Part shown: piece after piece, positions 6,824-47,193 of the stretch | How positions within the stretch are numbered: position 1 is the first letter of the stretch | Layout: every line of letters starts with the position of its first letter | Origin: Apostichopus japonicus | Lineage: Eukaryota > Echinodermata > Holothuroidea > Aspidochirotida > Stichopodidae | DNA length: 64,000 nt | Assembly (NCBI RefSeq): GCF_037975245.1 | Contig: NC_092566.1 | Span: 930,001-994,000, forward strand | Direction: 5' to 3' | Made by a program: the position numbers and the translations under genes | Notes under the pieces: generated by a model | Seen by the model: only the letters and a program-made list of their open reading frames with translations | What the model was told of the DNA's origin: nothing | Database searches by the model: none

Positions 6824-8393
6824 GTATTTCACAATGTGTGTTCTTAGCTTAGAGATGACCATGTATGATTAAAATAAAACCAAACTTTTGAAAAGTTGGG
6901 TCAGCAAATGGGAAAGGGGAGGACAGGAGGTGGTGGAAGGAGGATCAGAGGGGGATCAGAAGGGGCCAGGTACAGAGGAACAACCTTGCACCAGAAAATA
7001 ATTGATTTCACGATGTTGTGTAAATATGTGTTTATCATGATAACAGCTTCGTTGTTGTTATTTCATTTTTTTTTCATGAATTACTGGTGTCAGTGCCTAA
7101 ATAGAATTGCTATTAGTTTGCTTTTGAATAATTTCAAGAACAATTTTGATTACTGTTGCTGTTAGCCATGACATATTAGGTCATTATGATGACAAGGATA
7201 AGAAAGTATTTCTTCAAAGAAGTAGTTTTGACCTTTGGAAATATCATGTTTGATCTATAATAATTTATAAATAAATACAAATGATGAGCAACAAATTTGA
7301 GAATTTTTCTATGCTTTACCTTTCTTTCTTGTTTTTTTGTGTGCTATATCTTTCCTTCAAGGAGAAAAAACAATTGAAGTTAAAACATGTTATGGTAGTA
7401 TAAGAAAGGGATCCATTGCTTCATGGCTTGCTCCGTTAATTAGATATGAAATAATTACACTTTTTAAGTCCTTTTGTTTTTAAACAGCCCATTGTACAAT
7501 TATCTCTCATAACACATAGGACCAACACAACAAGTTGCTTTGTTGTTCTTCATTTTATGAAATTGCCTTTGTTATCCTTCATTATTATTATTTTTTTAAT
7601 GCAATCAGGATTTGATGACAAATTTAAACCACCAGTTAATTCTCTCAAAGTTGATTATTTTACCTAACTTCAATTCAACAAAATGTTTTCCCATATAGAA
7701 TTCCACTAATATACAATTTTTTTTATTATCACTTCAATATTGAAAGAAACTACCTTCCCTAGGGGATTATGTACAAAGACCACACATACAAATACAATTC
7801 TCAAATTCATGAATTAATCCATAATTTGTATTTTGAGGTGCATTCTTCATATGATTTGAACATAAGAAACCCCTCTCCCTATGTCCCCATTCTATCTTCT
7901 TACACAAGCTATTATATAAGATAGCTCTTGTACAAAAGATTCACATCTTTCATAAAATGCTGATGTACCACAAGCATGCAAAATTAATTGCCTCCACCAC
8001 AAAAAAAAAACATTGCTTGCTGAGTGGGTGGGGTGGTGAGATTGTTTAAGTATCAAGTTAGTTGCCCAGGCTCCTGTACTGAACCCTTCACAAATTTCGT
8101 AACCATTCTTGATCATTAACGCCAAATTCAAAGATCTGCCGTAGTGAACGCGCTAGCTACATATCGTGTCTAACAATGGTCAAACTATATGGCGATTCGA
8201 AACCTCCGTACATTATTATAAAGTTGTGTGGATGGCAGTTACATGCCCCCGTACGACAGCATCAGATTTGTCAGCCCGGGGAAATATTGTAATAATCATC
8301 GCTAAGATTGTTTGGCCAACTGTTGGATCTACTCTTTACGTCTGGACCAGGTTTTTAGTTCTCTTATTCGTCCTGTTTGATAATCTATCAAAA
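6824..8393. other. Intergenic region between the two ceramidase genes
   Basis: About 1.5 kb of AT-rich sequence without a recognisable gene. It should hold the promoter and 5' UTR of ceramidase copy 2. TATATAAG-like sequence occurs at about 7912-7920, but I cannot place a transcription start. An in-frame ATG at 8232 is discussed with the gene. Confidence 0.6.
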
Positions 8394-11300
8394 ATGCTCC
8401 GAGAGGTTTTATTTTGCTGCCTGTTGGTTGTTGCTGTGACAGCCCAGACACCAAACTACTATGTTGGGGTCGGAATGGCAGATGTAACCGGACCCGCAGC
8501 GGATGTGCAAATGGTAGGAAAACTGTTTCTGTTAGGCATGAAAAGTTTAATGTTTTTCCAACTTTGGCATTAGACCTACATGTATCGTTACATCGAAGCT
8601 TGAATTGCGTATGTCCTCCTATCACTGATGATTGAATAATATATTTTGCAATTTGTTTTTATGGAAATTTTGCATGAAATTAGTAATCCTGAGCAAGGAG
8701 ATCATGTAAATACCCTGTCATATATTTACCGTGTATTTGGATAAGGAAATTTGGGTAACATGCCACATTCCAAATGTTTCTGCTACATTGTAAAACTTGA
8801 CATGGTGATTGCAATGGAACAAGGTCCACTGTATTACTTTAAAAGGGAAGCACTTAGCCTATATGCATCACCAATTACTGTAGAAATGAGTCTAATTGTT
8901 CCCTACCAATGTGATCAGGTTTTAATTAATGAACTGTCAAATCTAAAAGTGTTTTGACTGTTGTTGCTGACAATGACTGTGTAATTCTCCTAACACCTCT
9001 ATCCTTAACCTCATTAACCACCCTTACTTCCATGTGTCTAGAAACAATGGTAGCCTACACAGTAAAATGTAAACAACACAGGTGAATATTTAGAAACCAA
9101 TATCATTTTTGGCCAGTAAACAGTTGACCTTTGACTAGTATACATTACACTATCCTTCTCACCACAGTCTTTGGAATAGAGATTCTAGAATACGTGCAAA
9201 GTCTTACAATAAAACAATAATGCCTGAAAGATCTTCAGTTCAGTAATGGTTCCCTCTAGTTTTGTTTTCAATAAACAGGTGGGAGGACCAACATTTTATA
9301 TCATAAACTTTTGGTTTGGAAATACACCACTTTTATCTATTCTAAGTATCTTTGCTTTCTGTGTTTCTTTTCTTCATCTCATGTTCTAATTATCAAGAGT
9401 TTCCAGCCTGTATTAATTAAGGCATTTCTGTTTTGCTTTCTACAGATAATACTTTAGTCTAAGTTAGTATATATCATGTGTGCATTGACATGGCATAGTC
9501 TACTGTTTATGTGGATTATGTATTATGCATATTAATCCTTGTTAGTTTAATTAGCAGTTCAGTTCTCTGTAACCATTAAGTTCAAATTCCAAAGGTTTGT
9601 ATAAAAGTAGAACTAATTTTCTCTGTAAACAAATATTCAAGTTGCTGATTATCAGCTTTAACAGCCAATCTGATATTTTGATCTTTTCAGATTTCATGCT
9701 GCTAAACGGTTATCTTTTCTCCTTTAACCTAATTAAGTACTGTATAGGCAAGATTTGTTTACATTTGTTGGACTTTAACAACCAACCACCCTACTACTAT
9801 CAATCCATACCAGATAAAATGTCAATACTCTTTACCCAGTGACTACTACGTACCACTTGCTAAATTCTAATGTTCAGGATTTTGATAACAATCTAAACTC
9901 TAGGGGGGGGGGGACTGGGAGAGGAGGGGCAGGGGATAATTGATGCATGAATTATGTTGGAGAATGAATGAATGAATGTTGGGGAAGAGGTACTGTACAG
10001 TAGTTGCATAATACCCCATTAAAGTTACATGACAAAAGTAAGGAGGCCTATATGTATCAGTTTCTGTTCTTAAAGACCAGACATATTGAATTTACTAAAA
10101 AGAAGAAAGCAGTTCATCAAATCAAGACATAGATCTACCTCACTATTCTTCAACAAATAAATTTATATTGGGTGGTGATGGGAGGGGGTTGGCTAGATAC
10201 TTAATAATGCCATTTTATTTTAATAATGTCATTGCATAATTGTTTTTATGGTTGTAATATTCACATGACAAAATTTGAAAGCTTTCAATATATTATCATA
10301 TTATTTGAAATGTAGCAACATTAGTTGTGACTGGTGTGTTATGATCCCATATTTTATTAGAAGCAATCATAATTCTTAATATTTACTGAGATACTCCAAA
10401 AAGTTCTTTGAAAGACTTTTGTTCACTTAGGATCCAGTTTAACTCCCTAATTGGATAAATTATTCTTCTCTTTGTCATTAGATGGGTTACGGAAATCCAG
10501 CCCAGACAACTAGAGGTATCCATATGAGACAGTTTAGCAGAGCCTTTATCTTCTGCGATATCAACGACCACTCGGACTGTCAGGTCTTTGTGGTGGTTGA
10601 TTTTGGCATGTCAGACAGTGCTGTGACATTAGGGGTAAGTATTGAAATGATGACATGGTAAGTCAGTATTTACCAGGTTACTTTGTGAGTCTGAGGCGTG
10701 AATACATTAATCACATTAATCTCAGGACATGTGACTCTGGAAAGTGTTTCTGTAAGGTTGGACACAGAAAGTTAAATATCTAGCACAGTTGAGGATGCTT
10801 TCAAAAGTCAAACTTTAGTAAAAGATGATTACATGGCTATTAAAGAGAACCCTGTAATAAATGCATTTCTTTTTGGTCTTCCAAAAAAACTAAAGAGTCC
10901 ATAAATTGTGCCATTTTGTTACTAATTTTGTTCCTGTACTACCTATGTGTCTTATAACTGTTTATGTTTTTAGAAATTTAGGGTACTGTGTGATACATTA
11001 ATAGATAGTCACATGGGTAGAAGGATAAAGAAGTCCTCTCCTGCAACCCCTTTCCCCCCATATAAAATATATTCCATGAGGACGCACTTATAATAAAAAT
11101 GCTCAGCAAAAAGATATGATTGGTTCCATACTTCTCATTGATGTTTACACAGGTGCTGGAGAGTCTATGGAGAGCCTATGGTTTTATATACGACAAGAAG
11201 AATGTGTCCTACCCCCCTCCCCCCCCCCCATGACATACATGTACGCCATGACAAACAATGGCAAAAGCCTAGTTATTGATTTCCCACACAGGTGCTGGAG

Positions 11301-29629: not shown

Positions 29630-32600
29630 TTACTCAGCATCTTGCAATGGGTGGTCCCTGCCTTCAGCATCTTGCAATGGGTGGTCCCTACCTTCAGCAT
29701 CTTGCGAAGGGTGGTCCCTGCCTTCAGCATCTTGCAATAGGTGGTCCCTACCTTCAGCATCTCGCAATGGGTGGTCCATGCCTTCAGCATCTTGCAATGG
29801 GTGTTCCCTGCCTTCAGCATCTTGCAATGGGTGGTCCATGCCTTCAGCATCTCGCAATGGGTGGTCCATGCCTTCAGCATCTTGCAATGGGTGGTCCTGG
29901 TCTTCTTCATCTTTACCGTCTAACGCTGGATAATTTTCCTTCCGCTGGACGATGCTCGGTTTTCTTCTTGATGATGTGCCTTGCCTCTCCTTGTCTCCAA
30001 GAGTTTTCAAGGATGAGGCCAGGACAGCATCCAGCCTTCTTCCCTTCTCGTGTCTTTCAGAGTTTAAACTACTACTGGCCACTGAGAGGAACCCATCCTC
30101 CTCTAGCCTCTCTCCTACCTCGGGGTGCATAATCGTATTAGGTCCAATCTGTGGCAGAGCGTCGTCTGGGTACGAATCGGAGATGCAAGAATTGTAAATA
30201 TTCAAAAGATGCTTCAAAAAGTCGACATTATTCTCAAACTTGCCCAACATTTTGAGATTATTCCAATCTGGCAGGATCTTGCTCCACATCACGCAATTCA
30301 AGTGGTTGTCCAGATCGCTCAAGGAACTGACGAGTCCCAGTGGGAGCTGATTACCAGCAACGAAGGATTCCGCCAAACTTATAGGTTGGTTTGTGTTTTG
30401 CTGTCGGCTTTGGTCTTGATTTGGGAGCAATGAAAAATTATCCGGGCCGACAAATGAGAACTGAAATGAAAGAGGAGGAAAGTGCTAGGAGTATTGGTGA
30501 ACCTGTAGGGAATCTGAACGAAATGAAGAAAATATCTGATTGTTTCACTTAAACCATCAATTTCCACCACATTCACTCCAGGAAAATAGCTACACTTTAT
30601 TTCAGTCCAGATTCTTCTATGCAAATTAGGTTAGTCCGAGGTGTATCTGCTATGTTAGTGTTGTAGGCTAAATGTTGATGTTTGTTTACAAAACATACAG
30701 ATATTCTTTATGGATGCATCCACATCCTTTGTGTATTTTATTATATAACACAAAACTTAATTAAAACTCTGCCAAAGTATAACTCAAAATGAATAGGCAT
30801 TTTAGTGTTACAAGTATAATCAGCTATATTAACTTACAGAATTAATATAAAAATTATCTTGAAGTTGCTAAAACAAACTGGTCCATTTTGCTGCAATTTG
30901 CACTTTGTACATACTGTAGTACAAAACCTTAACTGAAACCTTAACTGGTACTAGTTTAGTTTTCAATTGTTAATAAAATGTAATCAAAGAAAGAGGCTCA
31001 ATAGTGTGGAAAACATTAATATTTTAAATAGTAAAACAATGTAGATCATGACCCTGGAAACAACTAAGCATAAAGATATCTTTCGTTAGATGAACCTGAA
31101 CATACTGCGATAGATTAGACCTATGGATCAGTTAGCTATTAAGATGAAGAGGTTACACAGATATACTAATACAGACAGAGGCTGGACTGCAGATATCCCA
31201 GCAAGTGTTTGCTTTATTTATTCTTTTGATCACAAAGTATTCCTCAGTTTGTTGATTTCAGGGATATTGTATCAGTGTGTAGAAATATTAATTAGGTGTG
31301 ATGTTTCTCTCTTCTAAAGTGTTATCTCTTTCCTCCATATTTGTTTTGCAATCTGTGATTAACAAACCTAACTTATTTATCTGTTTGAACACTTCCTGCT
31401 TATTTCCTCACATCTTCTTTTAATCCTCAGACATGTGCTCTTGTTTACCAGAACAAAGCCATCATTCTTATTGTCATTTCAATTTATTGTGGTTTTTGAG
31501 TCTTGCCTTTTAGAAAGAATTTCCAGCTCTTCTCAATCAGTACTAGTTAATTTAGAGGAAACAGATTTCGTTTAGGGGCAGGAAAGTATCCAGCTATCCA
31601 TGAACAAGTTGTTGTATTTGTCCTAAATCGTCTGTAAGACTTCAGAACCTTTGTTGTGTTCCCATCTTCTTGTCAATCCTTTTCCAGCTATAATGTGGTT
31701 GCAGCCAAATGTTTGCCAAAGTGCTTAAAGTGTAGGTTACTAAATTCCTCCTGGTGTGTTGGAATTAATAAAAAATTTTAAAAACTTTTAACAGACACTT
31801 TGACAGATGGACAAGCCGACACACTTAAAGCAAACCATTGACTGATGGGATACATAAAGCAATGTTTCAACTCAATGAATTAAATTGTGACCATTTGTAT
31901 ATTACACTCCGAGGGACAGACAGACAGATAATTGAATAGAAGCATTTTAAGTTTAATTTGAGTTAGATTCTGGTTACTTCGCATAACATAAAGATTTAGG
32001 AAATTAAACTCATCACCAATGACAAACTAGACATACCATATCTTTGACTGCACGTAAAGCATCATTCATTGTTTCCAGGGGAGTCTGTTGGATGGATAAG
32101 TTGGAGTAACATGTTCCAAGACCAGCTTCTTGACTCAGTTTTTCCATAAAATATTGAATCTTTCTACTGCCCATGGGAATGTTCACCTGGTACCAGACCT
32201 CCATGGTACTGTAACTGGCAAGAGATCTTCTGATTGGATGCTGCCAAAGACTACTGGAGTCTGAACTTAGTTTGGCAAGATACTTATTGAGGTTGGAAAC
32301 AGGACAAAGAGAGTGACCTGCAGAGATGAAGAAAAATGTGTGATGCATATTCATTGATTACTAATATATTAGGTAGTGTTATAATACTTCTCCAACACAC
32401 CACTGTGTATCCCTTACCTAATAATTCTGGCATTCTGTCCTGGTATGTGCTCTGCCATGCTGCATATTCATTGATTACTAATCTATCAGGTAGTGTTATA
32501 ATATTTCTCCAACACACCACTATGTGTCCCTTAACTACTAATTCTGATCTGCCATGCTGCATATTCATTGACTACTAATCTATTAGGATATGTATAACAA

Positions 32601-35600
32601 TACTTCTCCAACACACCACTGTGTGTCCCTTAACTACTAATTCTGATCTGCCATGCTGCATATTCATTGATTACTAATCTATTATGTTATGTTATAATAC
32701 TTCTCCAACACACCACTGTGTGTCCCTTACCTAATAATTCTGGCATTCTGTCCTGGTATGTGCTCTGCCATGTTGCATATTCATTGATTACTAATCCATT
32801 AGGTTATGTTATAATACTGTGTATCCCTTACCTACTAATTCTGGCATTCTCTCCTGGTATGTGCTCTGCCATGCCACATACTCGTTGTTCTGCTCATCCG
32901 TCTCGAAGAGAAAAGTTCCTTTGTCCATCAGCCTCATTGACTCAGACAACCCATGGGTGATACTTTGGCACAGATAGAAAATCACATTGAACATGCACAG
33001 ATTGAGCAGACCCTGTGGGTGACTGGGTGTCATGTTAGGGGACTGGAAGAGAGTGATAAGGTCCTGGCATGTAATCCCTCCAGGTACTGGTTCTACCTCA
33101 AGTGGTGCACCTTGTAAATGTTGTTCTAACTTAGTCATGTTAGCTTTACAGACCCTGTTGGCAAATTCAAAGTCTGGATCATGAATAATGTCAACGTTCA
33201 TCTTAGTTTTGATATGGTGGGCAAGACGCAAGCGTAAGATTCGATAAGGTTCTGGAAGCGACTTCTGAGGAATCATCTTAGCGTAGACATAAAAGCCATG
33301 AAGAGCTTCGATCAAACTCTCTTTAGTGAAAGTTTCAAAGTTGATATTTTTACCCTGGTGCACCAAATACTTCTGGAAGAACTGTACTACCCTCATGGTG
33401 ACCTCTTCATCTAACACCAACAGGGTTTCTGAAGCCTCCTTCAAAGCTTCACCATTCTTTGCTGTTCCCTCAGAGTTTTGTGGATCGGTCTTCTGAAGCA
33501 GTGTCTCCAAACGCCTAACAAATGCAGTATTGGCCTTTTCGAATGCTGGGTCGTTTATGATATCCGTTTGAAGGAAATCTCTCATGAAGCAGGCCAATCC
33601 TTCCTTCATTATTACCAGAAATTCTGTCATCTGTAACCCCATCCACGGTAGCTGTTCTACTTTAGAATAAAAACCTGCTAAGAGGTCATTCACGGTCGCT
33701 TTATCCAGGCATTCAAACTCTTCGGTCTGATGGGTGTCGAAGCAAAACCTTCTAAACTTATGGACGGCTTTGTAGACAATCTGAAATGGTTTCTGAATAC
33801 CAGCTGGGAGAATGGCTCCTGAATGGTTGCTGTCAACCGGTAAAGAATCTAATTGAGGAAAGGTCCCTCCATATCTTTGGTTATCTCCTGAAATAAAGCA
33901 GTCATGGATTAGTCCATGGAGATCAAACCATAACTAAGTATTAAGAAGCATATTACATACACTGATTTGTAATCAAGTTTGCAGGAATAGCCATTTTAGA
34001 ATGTGGGGAGCAGGGAATTAAATATTTCCCCACAAAGTTCTATGTTACGGCATGAACCTTTATGTGAAGGCATGTAATGAACGAAGGAATTTTTGAGAGG
34101 AGGGTGACCATGGAGTCCTGAGTCCTGTGTAAGAGGTATGGGAAAATCCCCTAGAAAATTTTTAGAAATGTTGAGACGTCACGTCCTCTAATGGTCCATT
34201 CTGAGGAGTAGTTAGAATATAAATCAGATCTTCCATAAAATTTTCTTAAATTTTTGTGTGAGTTTTGCAAAAAGGGTTGTTTTAGAGCAGTGGTCTCATT
34301 CTTCACTGACTGAATGAAGAAAATCCATCGACTGAGTCATATTCCTGACTGGCAGTGGAGGGCCACAGAGCCCCTTGAGCCCCAACCCCTTTACACACAC
34401 CACTGGTGTTGAGTGGAAGTACTGTAACCATCCCTGAAATATATGTCTCTACTATCACCCACAAAAATGTCTGAACAAATGTACCTAATAATCTATGCAG
34501 GCAAGTAAAGTGATAGGCTTACGTACAGAGGGAGAATATAACATTCCAGATTTGCCATGCAACTTGAAAACACTGCAATTGAAGGAATCATAAAATCATT
34601 CACATCTGGTGAATTGAAGGTCACGTCATGCAGTATCTGCTGTATATTCTGACCATTCCTCAACAGCTAGATATTGTCAATTTAGGAAGTGATTTTGCTA
34701 GAACTATCCATGTATTTTGCCTGGATAATACTCAATTCACCTTCTTGAGGTAGACTGTCTATTAGACTGGATTCGGTTTCTGATTGGTTGGTTAACTGCT
34801 GGGCCACCTGACTTCCATCTGCATCAATCTCTTGTTTTGTGACCACTGAATGTCTGCTTCCCTATCAAATGAATTGAAAACAAATTTGGAAGAAATCTTC
34901 AAGCACTGAGTGAAATTTCTGTGAAAATTCAAATAATTGAATTTGGCCAACATTTTAGTTTGGAAGACAGGTACTAATTAGGTATGCAGGATAAGGATAG
35001 GTAATGTTTATGTATGACAATGATTCAAGACAACTGAATGAACCACCCAAACTGAATGGATCTGGTCAACTGGACAACATATCGTTACTAAAATATAACC
35101 TATTGCTCTTAACATGGTACAGTGAGACTGTGAAACCGTAAAGTGAGGAGTGAAGTAAGATGACAACATGCCAATAAATTGCTAGATTTAAGTTCCCGAA
35201 TCGATTCTCCTTGAGGTTCAACTCTCCGAGTTATTCTCAGATAACGAAGGGGGTTGAATTGGACAACAGTCTCAGTTAAAAAAATAATCTGAAAAATGCA
35301 GCTAATAATCATTGGTTGGCATATCTGGGCATAGCACAATGAACACATATATCACTTTATTTTTGGCATTCAAGTTTTCATTACATAGCAAAGATATTGG
35401 AATTTATTGTTGACTATTAAAAGCAAAATAATGAAAGGCAATGAATATATTTGTTCTCTCTTGTCAAATGTCAACATCATCTCCTTATATTCAAACTTGA
35501 ACGAAAAACTCCCACTCCCCCTCCCTCCCCCATATCTCCCTCGTCTCAAAAAAAAAGAAAAGAGAACAAGAATAATAAAAGAGTTGACAAATTAATTTGT

Positions 35601-38600
35601 GAAACCTAAAACTATACATTACAGCTAATAATATACCTCTGCAACATTAGACAATGAGTTCACTTGATCATTGAGGGGCGTTGGAAACGCTGGCAAAGTG
35701 AGAAGTTTTTCGCTGCTCATGGATTGGTCGATGGTGGAGGCACAGTTAGTTATATTCTGCTCTGAACCAGCCTGGAACATTGTGTAAGAAGCCCACGCTG
35801 AAAACAAACAAAATTATGACAAAAGAAGACCATTAGTATGTGTGAAACTTTGTCAAAATGTCACAGAAAGAAAATAAATACGATCACAGGTCACAGAACG
35901 GGAGGCAGAGCCGGGTGTGGCCAGGTGGAAAAATTACTTCCCCAGTTTGACCAAAAAAAAATCCTAAAAAGTGTCCTTTTCTATTTTGTTGTAGAAAGTA
36001 CCCTTCAGTCCATTTTGTCATGGAGGTAAAACAGATTTTGTCAGGACAGTTTTGAGGCAGTTTGTGGTTTATTTCCTGAAAGTAACATACTGGATGTATT
36101 TCATGTTAATCTTGATCTGGAGAAACTCCCAGGCTTTAACAAGTGACTGGTCTCTACATCCTGTTATTTGTATAACATCCTGAGTGTAACCAGGGAGTTG
36201 TTGTTTCCATAACAATTCTCCCGGTAACTAATACCAATTGCCTCTGACTCTTCTCCCCTTCATCTCTCAGGTGGTATTTTAATTTGTAGACACCTGTTGT
36301 ATAATATTGTTGTCTAGCAGTGAGTAACCAGGCACTTTGAATACAGAAGTCAAAAAGTGCAACAACTTCCAAACTTTATTTCCTCTCCTGAGTCAGATTT
36401 TGTATCAAGTTTGTTATAAGCATTTACTGGTTACTATTTTAGTTATTACCAAGAAAGGTATCATCTACATTCATTAGTTATTTTATTCATTCAACCAATA
36501 TCATACACACATGACGCTCATGTATTTGGGACAACATGCGTGCATGATTGGAGCAGAGGAAACTGAGCAATACAAGTAGCCAATAACTTTGAGAGATAGA
36601 ACTTCTAGTCAAGAATTTTCAGATTATCTTGCTAAATTTAAAGTGTGGTATAATAAGAGACACACGTACAGACACACTTTAAAAGTATACTCCAGTGGTC
36701 AAGTGCATTGTTGGTAATTTTTGGCATTTTATTGCTGAAAACCAATCATAATATTTTTTAAATTCAGACAAGTTTTCCTAATTATGTATCTGCATGGCAA
36801 CAGAAATTTTTGGGGGGGTTGAAAATATCAACATTGATCATGATGCAAAAATTATTTTCTTTAAAAAATACATATAGTATAAACACATTGCATTGTTTTA
36901 GAGCCTTGAATGCAGAGGACATTGACATTTAAAAGGTGTGAAGACTCAAGCAAAAGGAAACATCTAATGCCGGTAATCTGGCCTTGTTTCGAATGAGGTG
37001 TAACAGAAGTGTTAGACACCAGTGTACAGTCAGTACATACAGCTGAGGTCAATACCAACAGCACAGTGTACAAACAATACAGCCTAGCGATGGACATCTC
37101 AGGTCCAGCTAAAGATAACAAGGTATCACGTTTCATTACTGTACTGTCTGCAATTTACAGTGACTCTTGCAAAACATCACTTGCAAGCAACAGAAAGTTA
37201 ACTTTTTCAGATGGCCGCACGCAGTTTGGGGCGAGTCTTCAAAGCCTTTAGGTAAAGACATCACTCGTTGACAAAATTATGAAGTGAAAATGAAAGCGGT
37301 GAAATTCATAGCCACGATCACATCATAAAACAAATACTGTGATCTATTTCCTGTAGTAATCAAGGATTTATCTGGCACAAATATGTAAATTACAACTAAG
37401 TAACCATATATCTAAGGCAAAGAGGTAAGCTGACATGAGTTAGGATTAAGATATCAAGGTGGGGGATGATTTAACTCAGCACTGTGAAAATTCATATTTT
37501 TCTTCCTCTCTGTAATTGTCATTTTATCTGAGGTCTCTAAAAGACTTATATCAAGATGAGAAAAGATAACAGCATCTTCTCAAGCAATAAGTACAGAATT
37601 CAGAGTGCAGCTATTGAATCCATCATCTCCCACTTTAAATCAAAGGAATGTTTTCTACATCTTTCTATTTTGTCAGCCCATGGAGCTATTTATAGCTCCA
37701 TGCATGGTCAGCCCTTCATCTGTCCTTCAAAATAGAACAACTCTCTTTCTTTCTGTGAGAACCTTTTCTCCACCCTCCCTCAGGACTTCCTGTGACAAGT
37801 AACACTCTTATCTGGAAGAGATTACCTGCAGATTAAAACAGCTAATTAACTTGGTATTCTCATTGAATCATGGAGCTATAAACAGATTGACTTGCAAGGT
37901 CGACTGCATCAATTATTTACACCTATACAGTAACACCTTCTTAAAATCCCACAAGTTTTAAGTTACTGTGAGAAATGTCCAAAGGCAAACAGGATTTAGC
38001 AAATATCAACTTCAACACATCCCAATATAGGCAGACACATATAAGCCATTGCTACCTTTACTATGGTTTACTGTATTAAATGCTCCCAATCCAGCAGACA
38101 AGTAGACACATTGAAGTCTTAAAATATAATCCACATTTCCTGTACAGTAGGGTACAAACAGAACTAATGTGTAACATATTTATAATTGGAATATCAGTTT
38201 ATGAAAAAATTCCTATTGCAATTACATTGAAAGGGATGTCTAGGAAAAGTGGGCTGTAGAGGGGAGGGGTAAGAGAGGGAATGAGTTTGAGAGGGGTGGG
38301 GTTAGAGGTTGGGGAGGATATGGAGGACAATTAACAGAACCAAAATTATTCATATAATGTGCCATGGTTTAATCATACTTCCTTTGACTTCTGTTGAACT
38401 TTGACTTCAACCAAGCAATCAGCATCCACATATTATGTATGAAATATGTTTATGTTCACATAGATTTACACCCTTTGATCTCTGTTGACCTGCCATGACA
38501 TACTGTGTGTCACTCCCCCAAAAGTAAAAAAAAGTTTGCAGAATTCAGTACTGGGAATCCACCTACAGATATTACGTTTGGGGATTGTCATGTTTACAAT

Positions 38601-41600
38601 GTTGGTACAGTATATCACACACACACACACACACATACACATACATATTAGGGTTCTTACAAAGAAAACTGATTTAACCAATCTTAGATGTTCAAGATTT
38701 AGGCCCAGCGGGAAACATTTTTCACAAGCTGGGCTAATTGAACAATGGGGCCTATACTGAATAAGTGCATGTAGTTTAAAATGGTTTCTCAAGGATTATC
38801 AGCCTCTAAGGCAGACAAGGAAATATGATTTGTTACATGACGATTTGCTAGCATTATTTTGTTGAACATAAATAACATAGTCAACTTTGAGAAACTTCAA
38901 ACTGACCTCCTGGGAACCCTGTATCTTGATGTTTACGAGTCCGATACTCTCTGGCTTTCTCCCGATTGTAAGTTCTTAGTCTCGCCTTCTCCTCTTCTGA
39001 TAAAGAAGCTCTCTTTTCCTTCATTTGGATCCTGACAATCAAAAACAAGAATAAAGGATAAAGTACTAACAGATAAATTTGATTTCAATCCATACCTCCC
39101 GTCATCCAGATCAGAATTTTCTCTAGCAATATAATTGCTACAAGATAACATCACAAATACAATGTGCTTTGTTACAGCTAGTACAAAAATTAACTTTCGA
39201 GTACATTTTTTTAAATCAATATTTACGGTACTGTGTGTTTAATGTTAATGTTAATAAACCTTCCCTCAGTCCAGCTTTCGCTGGTTCCTAATCGCAGGGT
39301 TCAATCAGTATGTACATTGCAATTCGGACCCAGAACTATGGGTTCAACACTGCTCATTCTGATGTGTACTATACATGGCACTAGAACTACTACCTGTTAC
39401 ATGATCTGTGAAGGGATTAAAGGCATTGAAGACTCGCCCCAAACCGCGTGCGGCCATCTGAAAAAGTTAACTTTCCGTTGCTTTCAAGTGACGTTTTGTT
39501 CCTGTCGCTACAAAATGCAGACAGAAATGAAACCTCATACCTTGTTATCTTTAGCTGGACCTGAGATGTCCATCGCTGTATTGTTTGTACACTGTGTTGT
39601 GGGTATTGACCGCAGCTGTATGTACCGACTGTACACTAGTGTCTAATTACTGATGGTAGCAAGCTGTGTGTGTATTTTCTGGGATCGATGGTGGTGTTTA
39701 ACACTTCTGTTACACCTCATTCGTAACTAGGTCAGATTACCGGTATTAGACAGGTTTTTTTTTTGTGCGAGTCTTCACACCCTTTAATTTTGAATTGAAT
39801 TGGGGCAGGCAAGCTAACAGAGGTTAAGTTACAGTGTTACACCATCAGGTCTGGAGGTCAAACTTAATGATCATAACTGGCAGTGTAAATAAATTCATCT
39901 GAAATTAAAAAATCTGAGTATCTGGCTAGGTCTACAGTACTCCATACTGTGTATGTGCTGACACAGGGTTGTCCCTAAATTCTGCTTATTAATCAATTAT
40001 TTTATGTAACAACCACCAAAAACCTCTATATCAAGGACCTATCAGCTCTGCTTTGATGATCACTTGTTGGTAGAGACTTCATAATTCCGAATTATAAGCT
40101 ACATATCTCTATTTCAAAGGCTAGTCCAGAGGAAAATATATTTACCACTGATGAGTGAGGAACTTATTCTTAACAATTCAAGGTGCCAGGTCAAACAATA
40201 AATTAAAAATATAAAGACAAACAGACATTGGATCAAAGTCTCTTATTTCCCTGGTTGTGTTGTTCCATTTATTTATTGGGTATTTTACAGCAACACAAAA
40301 TACACACATGTGCTTGTTGTTATTTACAGAGATTATTCAGAAAATGACAAGGACATATATTTCACATCCCTTAATTATTTTAATTTTTGATTTAAAGTTT
40401 GTGAGAGAGTTTACCATAGGTTACCTCATCGTCAGGTGTGTTTTTTTTTTCAAAGAGCGACAATTTTGTTTAACTGTAAAATACCCCTAATAAATAAATG
40501 GAACAATCCAACTGGGGATATAATAGACTTGATCCATTTTGCTATTATAATGCAACTATGACGTCACACCTGTTTGCTTAAAGTTACCTCATGATACAAA
40601 CTGTGACAATTTCAACTATCAATATATTGGAAATTCAATGTAGGAATTGCTTACAAGTTTCACCAGAAAGCTAGTATATGTTTTTCTTTCATTAGTAAAT
40701 CAATAGTTTTCCTGGACCATATATGCCTTTAATGAAGGGAGCCCTACCTACTGTTTTACTTGGATATAGCTGCAGCTATATCCAAGTAAAACAGTAGGTA
40801 AAACAGATTTATTTTCTTACAAACCTGGATATCCAACCGGTTGGATATCCAGGTTTGTAAGAAAATAAATCATCTTGTTTGAAGTCATACTTACTTCAAG
40901 TGAACAGTGTATACACTGTTAGAGCTCTGTTTATAAATAAGGACAGTACCTAAGTAGTAGCCTACAAAGTATGTGGCATCGCCAAGGGGTGGCCTAGGGG
41001 GCATGCACGTGCCCTCCCAAAATAATTGTGCCCCCTCAGGTTCCCCCCAAGAAGGGATCTGTAGTGTTCAAAAAAAGTTTTTTGACAAAGGACGAAATGA
41101 TTATGTTCATCAGTTAAACTTCTTTCCAGCAACCATCACAATAACCAGTTGTTTTCTCCCTGACAAGGTCACAGAGGCCCCAGCATGAATGGCTAGTGCT
41201 TATAAACTTCACTACTTCCCTGCATAAATTTCAATTTTAATTTTCAACACTCTTATTTAAACACATTATCAAAGCAAACAGGTTCATTTCCATGTTTGTA
41301 TAACATTTTCATCCGCCTCAATTACAAACATAAATATCGGACAGACTAAAAAGAAAATTCTTGAACATAAAGTTACTTCAAGTTGCAAAATATAGCACCA
41401 GATTGCATCTAAGGACCCATATTAGTCCAAAATTTCTCAAAGGGGAGGGGACACCCCTTAGACCCCTCCCCCAGGACGGCAATCACAAATAAGCATTGTG
41501 CCCCTAATAAATGCTGTGCCCCCCCCCCCCCAGATTGAAACGTCTGGCGACGCCACTGAGCCTGTATAATTTGTAATACCACTCTTTATACTTTCAAACA

Positions 41601-42314
41601 TTACATTGTAAAAGAAAATTGCCCCGATAACTGAACTATATGTTTTGTGCCAAAAGTGAAAATTTAAAAGAGATGGAAAATAAGTGGCACCATAGGGCCT
41701 AGGCTAGGTCTAGTCCATTTTGCTACTAGCTGTACATATATATATAATCAAAGACAACCCTGGAACTAGACCAATACCCGAGGATGGCACTCAATTTGAC
41801 TCAGTGTCAGTTACATAGTCCATCGATTCCCCACCTTTCCCCCACATTTTCTAAGCCCATGCACCAATTAGTTACATTTGATCTTGCCCTACCTCCATCT
41901 CTCACGAAGTCTTGATTTTTCTTCAGGTGTCATTTGAGCACGTTTCCTTGCTAGTCTCTCTCTTTGCTGCTTGCGGATTAGTTCTTTCTTCTCTTCTGGT
42001 AGGTACATTCTCTTCAGTCTGACTCGCTCCCTGTTCTTTTTGTTTTCTAATTCTTTCTCTTTGGGCGTCATGAATGCCCTTTTAAGAGCCATGTACTCTC
42101 TTCCTCTTTTGCGCTCCATTTCTAGTTTATCAGTTGGCATGTAGGCCCGGCGTATTGCAGCACACTCCCTATTTCTCTCTCTACTTTGGTTTAACTTTTC
42201 TCCTGGAGAAAGGTTTGCCCCTTGAATTTCTTGCAAGCTCCTTGGCAGGTCCCTGATGTATGCCCCCTGACAGATCGGTGGAACTACTCTAGTCAGCTGT
42301 CCCTGTTCCATCAT
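29630..42314 (-). CDS. STPR domain plus domesticated Crypton recombinase (DUF3504-like), 998 aa
   Basis: Seven minus-strand exons join in frame: 42314-41893, 39031-38907, 35797-35637, 34861-34741, 33887-32832, 32317-32037 and 30460-29630 (TAA). Residues about 43-175 form 5-6 copies of a basic 23-residue repeat (for example RERLARKRAQMTPEEKSRL), matching the STPR DNA-binding domain of FMBP-1 and ZNF821. Residues about 320-410 and 435-525 are two related helical blocks (IINDPAFEKANTAFVRRLE and IIHDPDFEFANRVCKANM) like the N-terminal core-binding part of Crypton-derived DUF3504 proteins (QRICH1, ZMYM2-4, KIAA1958). Then come LLNLCMFNVIFYLCQSITHG, CPVSNLNKYLAKL and, near residues 680-705, WYQVNIPMGSRKIQ and YSNLSIQQTPLE, where active families have a YxNHSxRxT-like catalytic motif. 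His and Arg are replaced, so recombination is unlikely; a DNA-binding regulator is plausible (inference). The tail has nine DHPLQDAEGR-type repeats. No zinc finger is seen. Confidence 0.8.
29632..29905 (-). repeat. 30-bp coding minisatellite
   Basis: Nine copies of a 30-bp unit in the last exon of the STPR/Crypton-like gene encode (D/E)HPL(Q/R)DAEG(M/R). The stop codon TAA falls directly after the last QDAE. The plus strand is also open through the array, which gives shadow frames. Confidence 0.93.
32335..32831 (-). repeat. Intronic tandem copies of the end of exon 5 with its donor
   Basis: Downstream (minus strand) of exon 5 of the STPR/Crypton-like gene, the last ~60 bp of that exon plus its GTAAGG donor recur about four more times at ~100-bp spacing, with matches near 32725, 32635, 32525 and 32410. 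Two copies keep coding-like sequence (NEYAAWQSTYQDRMPELLG against NNEYVAWQSTYQERMPELVG) and a donor; two have a ~24-bp deletion and GT changed to TT at the donor. Confidence 0.88.
36933..37247 (+). mobile_element. MITE family E copy 1 (TTAA-flanked)
   Basis: A 315-bp element in intron 2 of the STPR/Crypton-like gene begins AAGGTGTGAAGACTCAAG after TTAA and ends GGGGCGAGTCTTCAAAGCCT before TTAG. Internal stretches (GCGATGGACATCTCAGGTCC, AGCTAAAGATAACAA) match the copies at 39421 and 43147. It is shorter because part of the right arm is missing. The open frames here come from the element. Confidence 0.85.
38614..38646 (+). repeat. (CA)n microsatellite
   Basis: CACACACA run with TACACATACATA at its end, in intron 2 of the STPR/Crypton-like gene. 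Confidence 0.95.
39421..39783 (-). mobile_element. MITE family E copy 2 (TTAA-flanked)
   Basis: A 363-bp element in intron 1 of the STPR/Crypton-like gene starts AGGCATTGAAGACTCG and ends CGAGTCTTCACACCCT, with TTAA on both sides (39417-39420, 39784-39787). It is in inverse orientation to the copies at 36933 and 43147. A 137-codon plus-strand open frame across it is a shadow. Confidence 0.88.
40745..40800. repeat. Perfect 56-bp palindrome
   Basis: Two 28-bp arms (TACCTACTGTTTTACTTGG then ATATAGCTG, followed by its exact complement) have no spacer. It lies in intron 1 of the STPR/Crypton-like gene, five bases before a second perfect palindrome. Confidence 0.98.
40806..40871. repeat. Perfect 66-bp palindrome
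   Basis: Two 33-bp arms (GATTTATTTTCTTACAAACC then TGGATATCCAACC and its exact complement) have no spacer. A further 18-bp perfect palindrome, AACAGTGTATACACTGTT, follows at about 40903-40920. Nothing coding is seen in it. Confidence 0.98.
40974..41563. mobile_element. Possible non-autonomous element (GTGGCRTCGCCA ends)
   Basis: The left end GTGGCATCGCCAAGGGG and right end CTGGCGACGCCACTG are inverted relatives (GTGGCRTCGCCA). Both are next to G/C-rich tracts (GTGCCCCCTC, CCCCCCCCCC). The interior includes AGCACCAGATTGCATCTAAG and GGGGACACCCCTTAGACCCC, which also occur in family B elements. Boundaries are approximate and it may be two fragments. Confidence 0.55.
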
Positions 42315-42346
42315 TTCGCCAAACTCAGCGCTACTTCTGCGGCCAT
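42311..42346 (-). promoter_or_regulatory. 11-codon upstream ORF overlapping the main start
   Basis: On the minus strand ATGGCCGCAGAAGTAGCG begins an 11-codon frame that ends in TGA at 42313-42311. That TGA overlaps the two adjacent ATGs (AAATGATGG) that start the STPR/Crypton-like gene. Both the uORF ATG (G at +4) and the second main ATG (A at -3, G at +4) have reasonable contexts. This is a termination-reinitiation arrangement if the 5' UTR includes it. Confidence 0.45.
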
Positions 42347-43146
42347 CTAAGCTGCTAATGATCTACCTTCTATTTGGTTAAAAATATCTCCTTCAAGTTG
42401 TTTTTCTCTGATAAACTTAGGCTAGAGTGTAATACTATCACGGGGGTTCAGTACTTGGTGATATGCACGGAACCAACACGTCGCAGTTACCGTCCGCATG
42501 ATATTAGGCTACTGTACAGCACTGTTGGTATCGATGGTTACTTGCATTCGTATACGGAGAGCGCTCTGAACACTTCTACTTTGTAGGCAAAGTAACAAAG
42601 GCGGCGTACCGACAGACAGACTGACACTAGCATAAATTACTGACGCACATACATCAGACTTTGAGATCCAGTCGTTCGATATAATACATTTAGATCTGCT
42701 GTATATAACCAAGTCATTCAAAACAAACCAATTTTTCTTTTTTAGTGATTATTTATATTGGTTATATAATAATAAATTTTTCTATTCCATATGAAGCGGA
42801 ATGCACATACCTATTGTAAGTTCTCCATTTTGGAGGACTTCATCAGTTGTGAAGTCTACCAATATTGTTGCCATAAACAATTTAGCTGAATTTTTAGCTT
42901 GCAAGCGTGTACCTCGATTTGGTAACAGCTATTCATATTTAATGTACGGGCCTCATTGCATTGAAGGTAGCAGCCACTAGGAGCAGACACTAACAGCAGT
43001 CACTAAGAGAAAAAGAACAGTAAGACATGGCACACAATATTGCCACTGCGGTCGCGTGTGTGTATTATGCAGATATCGCGGTCGTGTGTGTGTTGTTCAA
43101 TTAGTGCATAAATACCATAAGAAAGGTATCGTTTTCTCTCGATTAA

Positions 43147-43597
43147 AGGGTGTGAAGACTCGTGCAAAAAAAAAGAAACGTCTAATGCCGGTAATTTGAC
43201 TTAGTTTCGAATGAGGTGTAACAGAAGTGTTAGACACCACCATCGATCCCAGAAAATACACACACAGCTTGCTATATCGTCACTAATCAGACAGTGTACA
43301 GTTAGTACATACAGCTTCAGTCAATATACCCAAAGCACAGTATACAAACGATACAGCGATGGACATATCGGGTCCAGCTAAAGATAACAATTCAGGTATC
43401 ACGTTTCATTACTGTCTGCATTTTGTAGGGACACGAACAAAACGTCACTTGCAAGCAACATAAAGTTAACTTTTTCAGTTGGCCGTACGATGGTGGTGGG
43501 ATCGATGGTGGTGTTCAACACTTCTGTTACACCTCATTCGAAACTAGGTCAAATTACCGGCATTAGACGTTTCTTTTTGGGCGAGTCTTCACACCCT
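43147..43597 (+). mobile_element. MITE family E copy 3 (full length, TTAA target site)
   Basis: A 451-bp element has TTAA at 43143-43146 and 43598-43601 and starts AGGGTGTGAAGACTCG and ends CGAGTCTTCACACCCT. The inverted termini extend about 100 bp on each side with few mismatches, through CGAATGAGGTGTAACAGAAG to CCATCGATCCC. A TTAA duplication is typical of piggyBac-type transposition. No transposase is encoded. Confidence 0.92.
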
Positions 43598-44159
43598 TTA
43601 ATAATACGTTGTATTGGCCCCAAATATGCTAGATATTCAAATATGGCCACTTTTGGTCAAAATTCTTAAACTGTTTTTATTACAACCTTCAAGGACATTT
43701 TCCTCACTGGGACATTCAGTCATCTTGTGTGTTCCTAAAAAAATGTCTGAGAACAATTTGGAGAGTAAAGACCTCCAGGAAAGTACTTAATTATAGCCAT
43801 AACAACTCCCTGATTATAGCGTGCTATAACCCCGATACCGACCTCTCCAAAATGGCGGTATATACGTAATGTGTAAAAAAAAATTTCCTTCAAAATCGAT
43901 TAATTTGAGTTATCGGGCTGTATATAAGTAATGTGTTATGATCTAAAAAGGTTTCTTATTTTCAAAATCGATTCATTTGAGTTATCGACCTAGATAAGTT
44001 CGGTTAGCACCACATTAAAGTAGAAAGGTTCCTCTTTCACGTGGTATATCTTTACTATCGGTTACAAAGCCGATTTCTCGACCAAATGTTTGTCGTTATG
44101 GCATCGTGGGGTCTATGAGTTTGAGAAATCATAGAAAAGCTGCTTTTAATAGAATAAGG

Positions 44160-44640
44160 AGGTAAACATTAAAACGGCTTGCTATATGCCATAAGTAGCC
44201 TACGTTGAAGAGGTATCCTGGGCTAGTTTCAGGATTGTTGCTTGGTTTGTTGAATTTCTTGACTTTCTTTGATCTACCAACTTTCGCTTCGTGACCTATT
44301 TTGCCACACTCGTTGAAGGCTTTGTTTTTAAACAAAGTGGTGAGTTATTCGTACCCCGGCAATGATAACAGACAGTCCTTTGCCCGGCCTTGCGATTTGT
44401 CTTTCCGCGTTTCCTTCGTCCATTGGGAATTAATTGTACGCGCTCTCCTCAGAAGTTTCGACGTCAGTCGCTTGCTGAAATGTTTGCTTCAAGTCGTCCG
44501 CATCTTTCGATGCAGTCTCTAGGCCTATAGCAATTTCCAATGCCGGTCGAATTTGATAACATATTTCTTTGGAAGCCGTCATTGTTAATTCCACAAACCA
44601 ATCTACCTCGAAGTATGTTATTTTAAAGTTGTGCTTTATA
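44160..44640 (-). pseudogene. Decayed Ty3/gypsy gag fragment
   Basis: Read on the minus strand in shifting frames, this contains GRLVCGINNDGFQRNML, then (another frame) ALEIAIGLETASKDADDLK and a stop after SEESAYN, then CYHCRGTNNSPLCLK, then FNECGKIGHEAKVGRSKK. This order (VCGIN...Q, ALE-A--ETASKDA, two CCHC-like knuckles, basic run) is that of gypsy-like Gag proteins. At least two frameshifts, a stop and replaced knuckle cysteines show that it is dead. No pol or LTR was recognised nearby. Confidence 0.75.
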
Positions 44641-44682
44641 TACTGCTATACAGCTCTTAATTCCGCTACGTAGAAAGAAACG

Positions 44683-45037
44683 GAGGGGAGGGGGTGTCCC
44701 CCTCCCCTTTGGAAATTTTTTGCATTTCCAGGTGGCCTCAGATGTAATTTGGTGCAATATAGCACACTTCAACACCCACTCCATTTTGTAAATAATTTTG
44801 CATTTTCACCTGGCCTTAGATGCAATTTGGTGCTCCAAATGAGATTTTTTTCTGCCAAAATGTTCTGAGCACCAAGGGCAGTTAGTTCCTAAAATGACGA
44901 ATGTGGTTATCATTTATTGAGAAATGAAAAAGGGGTTTTCTGACTTGCGAAGCGAGGGGGGGGGGCGGAATGATACTTCCGCCCCCATATTTTTCACTGG
45001 GGGCTGGCGCCCCCAGCACCCCGGTTCCTTCGCCCTT
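44683..45037 (+). mobile_element. MITE family B copy 1 (left end damaged)
   Basis: Shares with 52227-52577 the segments TTTTGCATTTCCAGGTGGCC, AGATGCAATTTGGTGCTCC, AAAAAGGGGTTTTCTGACTT and GGGCTGGCGCCCCCAG, ending GGTTCCTTCGCCC. The GGCGTAGGAA left end is not intact. Confidence 0.8.
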
Positions 45038-47193
45038 GGTTAAACTCGTCTAATTTTACAAATAGCCGGGACATTTTGACAAAAAACAGATATTGAAATT
45101 ACACTGGAAAGAATCTCGTCGCCAATTTATGTAACATTCCCGTTTTAAAACACCACATGAAATCACACTAAAGAATGTAGGTATTTTGTGCAGGCACGTC
45201 TAATGATCTATTTTAGGGTTAAATCACAAGTGAGTTAAAACGTGTATATCACATGAAAGAACAACATATCATCTCTATTATGGTACAATTTTTGGCTATT
45301 TACAGTATGCATAGCGTGAGTAAGGAAAAGGAACAGTCTTGGTATTATCTGCTAATATAGTTGCTGCCCAGTTTCCCGCCACAGCGTACACAGCGCTCGT
45401 CACAGTGTGCAAACATCAGTGTCCAACCTCTCGTAACGTTGATGTATACACTATAGACTGCTGAAAGTGTCTACTGTTATTGGCTGCTACCTTCAAACAA
45501 GTGCACATCAATAACACAACCAGTAAATACTATAGTAGACCTGGTTCTAGTAGTAACATATCTCAATCCCAGGTAAAATCATCACAACCAAGCATTAAAC
45601 TACCCGTGTACGTACAGTTATTTCCTTACATGACTTTTACTCCTGAAATTCAGACGAGGTTACATCTACTATTGTGTCTTTCTGGCCACAATAGCTGTAT
45701 AACATATGTGTCCACTGTCCAATCGATTTCATTTGTGTAGGACTAACTGTTGCCTACCAAAAGCAAATATTATCTTCGCTGTAACTAGCTAGGCTAGGCC
45801 TAAGAACTAACTTCAGTGATGTATTGCAAGTACATATTGACATTTACTACTTACTTACTCTTAAAGTCTAAGGAATGGGAATAACACGGTATGTATAGAC
45901 GGTATGTCTAAAAAGCTTTACCCCAAACAAGTATCGTCGTTGAAGTAAAGAATTCTTTTTGTAAATTGCCTATGCATAGCCTAGGCCTAGATCAATATGC
46001 CTAGGCCTTACGAGTATGCTAGCCTACATCAAAATTTTCAATGTTTCCCTATAAGTATTACCGTTTAATGTTAGGCTAAGTATTATAAGCTTCCTCACAC
46101 ATGTCAGTGAAGTCTTAAAGTCTTTAAGTTTAGCACTAAAGCAATTGCAACCGAAGCTAGCCAGGGCAAAAAATATGTTTGACCTCTAAATTTAAAGCTA
46201 CAATTTGCTTTGATGTTAACAAGGTCCAAAACAGTGCAAATAACTTACTTATTAAAGTTGACATATAAACACCTCCTCACACCCAGGTAGCCAGTACAGC
46301 TTTAAACTAAATCAACTAAACATACTGACTTTTTCCTGACCACCTATGAATGGATATGGCTGGAGATGAAATGTTATGAATTGTTAGTCAAATTAGATGA
46401 GGGATATTGGCCTGTCTGAACTATTGTAGAATCAAGGAATAGAATGAGATAGAGTGGTTTAAATAGTGAATGACTGGAGATGTATAAATGGATTAATAAC
46501 AAGGTTTTAATGTTTGGTCTCTCTGATCAAGCCATGTAATATTCTGACAAGTTGTAGAGACACTCGAGAGAAACGCAACTTTACACCATGGTAGTGTATG
46601 CTCTACTGATATATTTATTCCTCTTGCATCTTCACAAACAGTTGACCAGTTGACCCTACAAAGTGACCAGACATTAATGCCAAGAGACTAAATGTGGTTT
46701 ATATGACTGCTCCTAGTTATTGAGTAATTATTATAGATTAACCAGTCCAAAAAATAAGTTTGTGGCCCAAATATTTTATTTCTTAATCAAGTTGATCCTA
46801 TAGCCTGAGCTGAGTTATTTCATAGTAGCAACTACATGTCCTATCCTTGATTTAACATGTATCGGTATGGTATTGCCAGATAACAGCAAAAACAGCATAA
46901 CAGTAAACCATGTATATCATACCTGTGACAACAATCAGAGTTGCACGGTTGTAGGGTTGCCAAAGGATCGCTGTCCAGATTAATCTAAGCATCTACAGGT
47001 GACGAAACAAAACTGTCTGCATTGCAAATACTTTGACTGATAAAATAAATGTCTGATTTAATTGATTATTAACATTTTCTTAAAATATCTTATATTTTGG
47101 GTTAATTGCAGTTCATAAACCAATATATGTTGAGGCTTGCAGAACAGATGACTAGATGAGATAATATAACATATAAAATATTTTCATCCTCAG

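Follow-up and report, generated by a model that had tools for sequence, protein, structure and literature searches.

A Predicted Apostichopus japonicus Gene Joining a Basic 23-Residue Repeat to a Degenerate Recombinase of Apparent Crypton Origin

The question raised by positions 29630 to 42314 of a 64,000-nucleotide stretch of the Apostichopus japonicus genome (assembly GCF_037975245.1, contig NC_092566.1, positions 930,001 to 994,000; hereafter the window) is whether its minus strand carries one gene that joins a 23-residue repeat to a degenerate Crypton recombinase, and what the product of such a gene would do. The locus, designated gene A, is probably an echinoderm host gene made from a Crypton, in which the repeat would bind DNA, the dead recombinase would bind partners, and the protein would serve as a regulator of chromatin or transcription rather than as an enzyme. 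This assessment was made from the DNA sequence of the window and of the whole genome, which comprises 671,581,487 bases on 35 contigs and in which the window is C6:930001-994000. The observation is real and coherent, the predicted architecture is unusual, and the gene is a variant of the domesticated Crypton genes.

Gene A is predicted from the sequence to consist of seven exons that run from 42314 to 29630 on the minus strand and encode 998 residues with no phase conflict (Table 1). The exon model put forward in the original prediction was reproduced exactly and in the same place. All six introns (6/6) are of the GT-AG type, all splice dinucleotides are canonical (12/12), and the stop codon is found at 29630-29632. 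For each exon, a codon model built from the remaining exons and from a paralogue, B, provided a leave-one-out coding score in the exon's own frame. Exon 7 was taken without its minisatellite, and the scores were compared with those of 3000 random windows located mostly outside the exons. A score as high is reached by 0/3000 windows for six of the exons and by 1/3000 for exon 2. When only stop-free windows are counted, the corresponding values for exons 2, 3, 4, and 6 are 1/262, 0/127, 0/260, and 0/9, respectively. The coding score of exon 1 is higher than those of 3000/3000 intron windows. With 0.065 stops per triplet, as in the introns, the 352-codon open frame of exon 5 has a chance probability of 6e-11. 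The 276 open codons of exon 7 have a chance probability of 1e-8 with the minisatellite counted in, and the 187 open codons that remain without it have one of about 4e-6 at the same stop rate. Exons 3 and 4 together have an isoelectric point (pI) of 4.05. The minisatellite encodes acidic 10-residue repeats resembling HPLQDAEGRD, which constitute the last ~90 residues of the protein. With this 30-bp repeat in the last exon, the minisatellite is likely to be length-polymorphic and the length of the protein may vary.

The middle part of the protein had been described as DUF3504- and Crypton-like, and this description was upheld. The DUF3504 model marks nine places in the genome, and a search with the gene A protein recovers 6/9 of them (best E 4.3e-14). 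The three places that are missed all lie within one ZMYM/QRICH1-like gene on contig C21. The best Crypton copy, L002, contains a 381-codon frame that matches DUF3504 (E 3e-13) and Phage_integrase (E 3.4e-6), models PF12012 and PF00589, and retains its catalytic motifs; its match to the QRICH1 domain (5e-4) is below the cut-off. Crypton pieces were located at ten loci (L002, L003, L004, L005, L006, L007, L008, L009, L010, and L011), which form two or more subfamilies by identity and several of which have open frames with the HxxR motif kept. The Crypton pieces, a set of ten from which seven were retained by the filter, were aligned with residues 441-722 of gene A using hhalign, which provided a probability of 98.9% and an E value of 1.6e-17 over 253 columns. 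The score is 123, whereas 100 shuffles do not exceed 21.4 and the reversed sequence gives 15.7. By these alignments, residues 441-722 derive from a Crypton tyrosine recombinase.

The link to DUF3504 is transitive, through the Crypton copies of this genome, because Pfam searches with the whole protein and with two pieces of it detected no DUF3504 match, even at E values up to 10. The original prediction had singled out a missing DUF3504 match as decisive; for the protein taken alone the match is indeed missing, yet the transitive and profile evidence outweighs its absence. Neither the repeat region nor the recombinase part had a relevant match among PDB sequences. With the Crypton alignment, weak PDB matches appear for QRICH1, XerA, and Int (E 0.018, 0.046, and 0.13, respectively). 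No relative of exon 5 was found in the viral contigs searched. An AlphaFold2 model of exon 5 alone, built without an alignment, was discarded; the mean predicted local distance difference test value was 39.5, too low for a fold search.

Catalysis appears to have been lost. The segment YSNLSIQQT, flagged earlier as a degenerate HxxR motif, aligns with YTNHCVRATT of the Crypton copies, and both the His and the Arg are gone. The motifs CRRGREGL and NHCVRATT of L002 are replaced in gene A by CQSITHGL and NLSIQQTP, respectively, and the third motif, SGHR..Y, has no clear counterpart. In the alignment with the Crypton copies, the catalytic Arg, the HxxR motif, and the Tyr of the R-H-R-Y tetrad are thus lost, and about 13 residues around ATKNHPGD are also missing from gene A. 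Domesticated Cryptons have as a rule lost most of the tetrad, according to the accessible text of PMC3212892.

The core-binding domain is present twice, as the original prediction had suspected. Residues 316-408 and 442-535 are identical at 29/96 positions (30%) with a blastp E value of 2e-8, and 0/2000 shuffles score as high. The profile score of block 1 is 31.8, compared with at most 22.9 in 100 shuffles. A tree of nine core-binding domains has no starred branch and places genes A and B on the same side of a branch supported at 86/93. Blocks 1 and 2 of gene A group together at only 56/27, and long branches leave the tree unsure. The tree therefore gives no date for the doubling.

Residues 58-172 form five 23-residue repeats, and a weak repeat (residues 35-57) stands ahead of them. 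At an offset of 23 there are 44 self-matches, whereas 5000 shuffles average 12.1 and reach 26 at most. The period continues unbroken across the junction of exons 1 and 2, which supports that junction. The repeat region (residues 50-180) has a pI of 10.6 and a charge of +20.9 over 131 residues. The STPR domain of FMBP-1 is reported in the accessible text of PMC4821344 to contain four repeats with a pI of 11.4, to bind an AT-rich motif, and to aid nuclear entry. Gene A resembles FMBP-1 and ZNF821, as presented there, in its tandem basic 23-residue repeats, of which it has five and FMBP-1 four, and differs from them in carrying the repeat at its N-terminus, in predicted linkage to a dead recombinase (PMC4821344). 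With regard to the Glu4-Arg9 salt-bridge pair of STPR repeats, gene A shows a Glu-Arg pair five residues apart (i/i+5) in at most 2/5 repeats in any column, with no fixed register relative to FMBP-1. No Pfam model matches the repeats apart from DUF1104 at E 6.9. Of the earlier claim of STPR repeats, the 23-residue period stands; the repeat may be called STPR-type by its period and basic charge only.

Protein searches of the genome with the repeats of gene A itself (the query was not ZNF821) found no second convincing copy, with a weak match on C9 remaining. Beyond the gene itself, the repeat consensus matches C20 (E 0.04, four internal stops), C10 (E 0.8), and C9 (E 2.5). The match on C9, at C9:23669796-23669978, is within a 581-codon open frame, which is a possible second 23-residue-repeat gene. 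A match to the repeat region on C15 (E 0.019; E 0.54) was rejected and sits in another acidic minisatellite.

Paralogue B is a predicted model of at least four exons, located 12.5 Mb away at C6:13518900 to beyond 13526499. It contains a degenerate Crypton domain (E 5.7e-10 against Cryptons by hhalign) with TNMSLVLT replacing TNHCVRAT, so that the loss of HxxR is common to both genes. A phase-1 intron before the Cys-Pro motif occurs at the same residue and in the same phase in A and B. Both genes also have a phase-0 intron after the recombinase part, displaced in B by about six residues towards the C-terminus, and the exon between these two introns is 281 bases long in each gene. The alignment of the C-terminal domains of A and B scores 119, compared with a maximum of 62 in 5000 shuffles. 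Because the intron site, the 281-base exon, and the C-terminal domain are shared, A and B seem to descend from one intron-bearing domesticated gene, with A having acquired, or B having lost, the repeat and the second core-binding block. Paralogue B differs from gene A in its single core-binding block, its long low-complexity tail, its basic recombinase part, and the absence of a detected repeat; genome searches gave no 23-residue repeat near B, with the 20 kb upstream of it covered as open frames only.

The same exons could instead belong to two adjacent genes, one encoding a 190-residue STPR-like protein that ends in a longer exon 2 and the other a Crypton-derived gene that starts from exon 3, 4, or 5. 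Reading past the donor of exon 2 leads to a stop after 8 more residues, and an ATTAAA is found at 38373, about 0.5 kb past exon 2, but AATAAA is absent within 2 kb past exon 2 and next appears at 36733. Exon 3 contains an in-frame Met with A at -3, and neither exon 3 nor exon 4 has a homologue, but both are code-like in the required frame. The phase fit of such short exons is weak evidence and paralogue B has no detected repeat, but splice sites are present at the junctions. The CpG-rich stretch, perhaps an unmethylated promoter region, is located at exon 1, and the largest observed/expected CpG value in 1-kb steps from 29 to 42 kb is 0.54, although 500-bp steps rise to 0.71. The exon 3 and 4 codon scores, the CpG-rich stretch, and the lack of AATAAA within 2 kb of exon 2 together favour a single gene, and two adjacent genes are considered rather unlikely.

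Net charges of the parts were compared. The recombinase half carries -3.2 charges per 100 residues in gene A, +3.3 in L002, and +3.8, +4.1, and +7.7 in the L003, L005, and L010 pieces, respectively. The values for core-binding blocks 2 and 1 are +5.3 and -1.1 per 100 residues, respectively, and the linker and tail of gene A are acidic. Because the repeat is strongly basic and the recombinase half is now acidic, we infer that DNA binding passed to the repeat. In the proposed mechanism, the basic N-terminal repeat would provide DNA binding and nuclear entry, as the STPR domain does in FMBP-1. The dead recombinase, with its acidic catalytic half, would act as a multimerization or partner module, to which the basic core-binding block 2 would perhaps add a DNA contact. 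The acidic linkers and tail would recruit the transcription machinery, and the protein would regulate chromatin or transcription and no longer act as an enzyme.

Alternatively, the recombinase-derived part may still be the DNA reader, and the repeat merely a basic helix or nuclear signal. The charge of core-binding block 2 is like that of 3/4 Crypton core-binding pieces (+4.8 to +5.9 per 100; the fourth is +0.9), and the recombinase part of paralogue B, with no repeat found, is strongly basic. The catalytic half supplies many DNA contacts in the tyrosine recombinase fold. In gene A this half, together with block 1, is now negatively charged, which argues against a retained DNA reader. A precedent in its favor is offered by the plant ALOG regulators, which arose from core-binding domains of other tyrosine recombinases according to the accessible text of PMC3537659. 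A recombinase-derived DNA reader is judged to be improbable. That gene A is a decaying Crypton copy or pseudogene, as the missing catalytic residues, the minisatellite within the last exon, and the decayed exon 5 ends repeated within intron 5 might suggest, is highly improbable in view of the open frame of exon 5, the canonical splice dinucleotides, the intron within the recombinase of gene A where the L002 copy is uninterrupted, and the identical intron site in paralogue B.

Several results count against gene A as a single domesticated regulator with DNA binding assigned to the repeat. In addition to the missing direct DUF3504 match, the QRICH1-domain model matches only the C21 gene and not gene A, and block 1 taken alone gives a weak profile match (probability 41.7%, E 2.7e-4). 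The exons without homologues are 3 and 4; on inspection exon 4 seemed to resemble exon 1 of paralogue B, but a shuffle test showed this to be chance (p 0.43), and the resemblance was rejected. The CpG argument is weak, and supportive only: a repeat copy (43167-43601) makes up part of the CpG-rich stretch, values of 0.71 (39.0-39.5 kb, overlapping a repeat copy in part) and 0.61 (30.0-30.5 kb) occur in 500-bp steps within the gene, and CpG is also frequent elsewhere in the window (0.69 at 28-29 kb and 1.07 at 53-54 kb). The charge argument is post hoc and made from one protein; the recombinase part has kept a basic charge in paralogue B (+6.5 per 100) and is near neutral in the C21 gene (+0.5). 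Selection was judged from open frames alone in one genome. The earlier claim of a domesticated transposon gene is sustained in part, by the Crypton origin, the doubled core-binding domain, the lost catalysis, and the frames kept open.

Four Crypton domestication events in animals were described by Kojima and Jurka in 2011 (PMC3212892). In the accessible text of that paper, KCTD1 and KIAA1958 are vertebrate genes with the domain in a single exon, and the domesticated DUF3504 proteins have lost most of the tetrad, many of them being regulators. Like WOC/ZMYM2-4/QRICH1, KCTD1 isoform b, and KIAA1958 as described there, gene A is a Crypton-made host gene with catalysis lost and other domains joined to it. 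Unlike the single-exon KCTD1 and KIAA1958 (PMC3212892) and the local ZMYM/QRICH1-like gene, gene A has an intron before the Cys-Pro-Val motif; it further differs from the DUF3504 genes of that paper in its two core-binding blocks, its 23-residue repeat, its own C-terminal domain, and the absence of a direct Pfam match. The local ZMYM/QRICH1-like gene (L013, C21:18734500-18744499) has the Cys-Pro-Val motif inside an exon and carries a QRICH1 domain (E 1.6e-25) as well as three open pieces that contain DUF3504. L013 is also similar to QRICH1 of the solved structures 9hjt and 9hju (E 5.9e-33). The genome search with the gene A protein gave no match to L013, and gene A gave no match to the Pfam QRICH1 domain.

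Because the intron is absent from L013 and, in the accessible published descriptions, from KCTD1 and KIAA1958, genes A and B seem to represent a further, separate Crypton domestication; the tunicate and lancelet candidates of PMC3212892 are outside this comparison. The fuller account is offered tentatively, as one with a substantial chance of being right that may well be wrong. Here a further independent domestication, beyond the four lineages of 2011, would have founded a two-gene family, so far from one echinoderm genome. Gene A would have gained what is seemingly the only STPR-type domain of this genome and a second core-binding domain, with DNA binding handed from the recombinase to the repeat, and its sister would have kept a basic recombinase and no repeat.

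The original prediction knew of no described protein combining STPR and Crypton parts, and this agrees with a literature search in which no paper with both "Crypton" and "STPR" was found (subscription papers and annotation databases not covered). Among the matches listed for domesticated Cryptons (titles and abstract starts), none fits gene A, and "STPR" does not appear in the accessible text of a sea cucumber genome preprint (PMC13228809). A related case is MrpR of phage SPbeta, a dead tyrosine recombinase that is a DNA-binding repressor according to the accessible text of PMC10516654. Gene A is like MrpR in having a tyrosine recombinase fold with catalytic residues lost, and recombinase activity is lost in MrpR (PMC10516654). 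Unlike gene A, MrpR is a bacterial prophage repressor with one core-binding domain and, as described in that text, no added repeat, and the analogy is one of mechanism only.

Additional features were noted in and around gene A. A small upstream frame, MAAEVALSLAK, at 42311-42346 on the minus strand ends in a stop codon overlapping the gene's own start codon and may provide translational control. Intron 5 contains ~99-bp tandem repeats at 32341-32816, the units of which include a decayed exon 5 3' end and splice donor. These copies show 70-73% protein identity to the exon 5 end over 22-25 residues and are possible alternative donors. One repeat family has copies in intron 2 (36929-37250), in intron 1 (39418-39764), and ahead of exon 1 (43167-43601). 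Its copies are partly palindromic and 85-96% alike, and the family looks like a non-autonomous DNA transposon. Elsewhere in the window, 8157-8570 on the plus strand encodes an N-terminus with a weak, sub-cut-off match to neutral ceramidase (PF04734, E 0.0019) and is possibly a neighboring gene.

Table 1. Positions, in window coordinates, of the predicted exons of gene A and of features within and beside them
Feature	Coordinates	Strand	Description
Exon 1	41893..42314	-	start codon, degenerate repeat 35-57, full repeats 58-126, most of repeat 127-149
Exon 2	38907..39031	-	end of repeat 4, then repeat 5 (38938-39031)
Exon 3	35637..35797	-	acidic linker without known domain
Exon 4	34741..34861	-	acidic linker
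Exon 5	32832..33887	-	both core-binding blocks and first part of recombinase domain; 352 open codons
Exon 6	32037..32317	-	second part of recombinase domain; preceded by phase-1 intron at same residue as in paralogue B
Exon 7	29630..30460	-	C-terminal domain, acidic repeats, stop; no counterpart of catalytic Tyr
Core-binding block 1	33487..33792	-	residues 309-410, charge about neutral
Core-binding block 2	33103..33396	-	residues 441-538, basic
YSNLSIQQT	32082..32108	-	stands in for HxxR catalytic motif
C-terminal domain	30173..30334	-	residues 765-818; in the genome only in gene A and paralogue B
30-bp minisatellite	29634..29897	-	8.8 copies, in frame in exon 7, up to stop codon
CpG-rich stretch	42001..46000	.	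at and upstream of exon 1; observed/expected 0.53-1.15 in 500-bp steps

Regulators have arisen from transposon recombinases on several occasions, and how labor is divided with an added DNA-binding domain is unclear. A paralogue pair in which one member has the repeat and the other apparently does not would allow a direct test of that division. Genes A and B would also lengthen the short list of animal Crypton domestications by one event.

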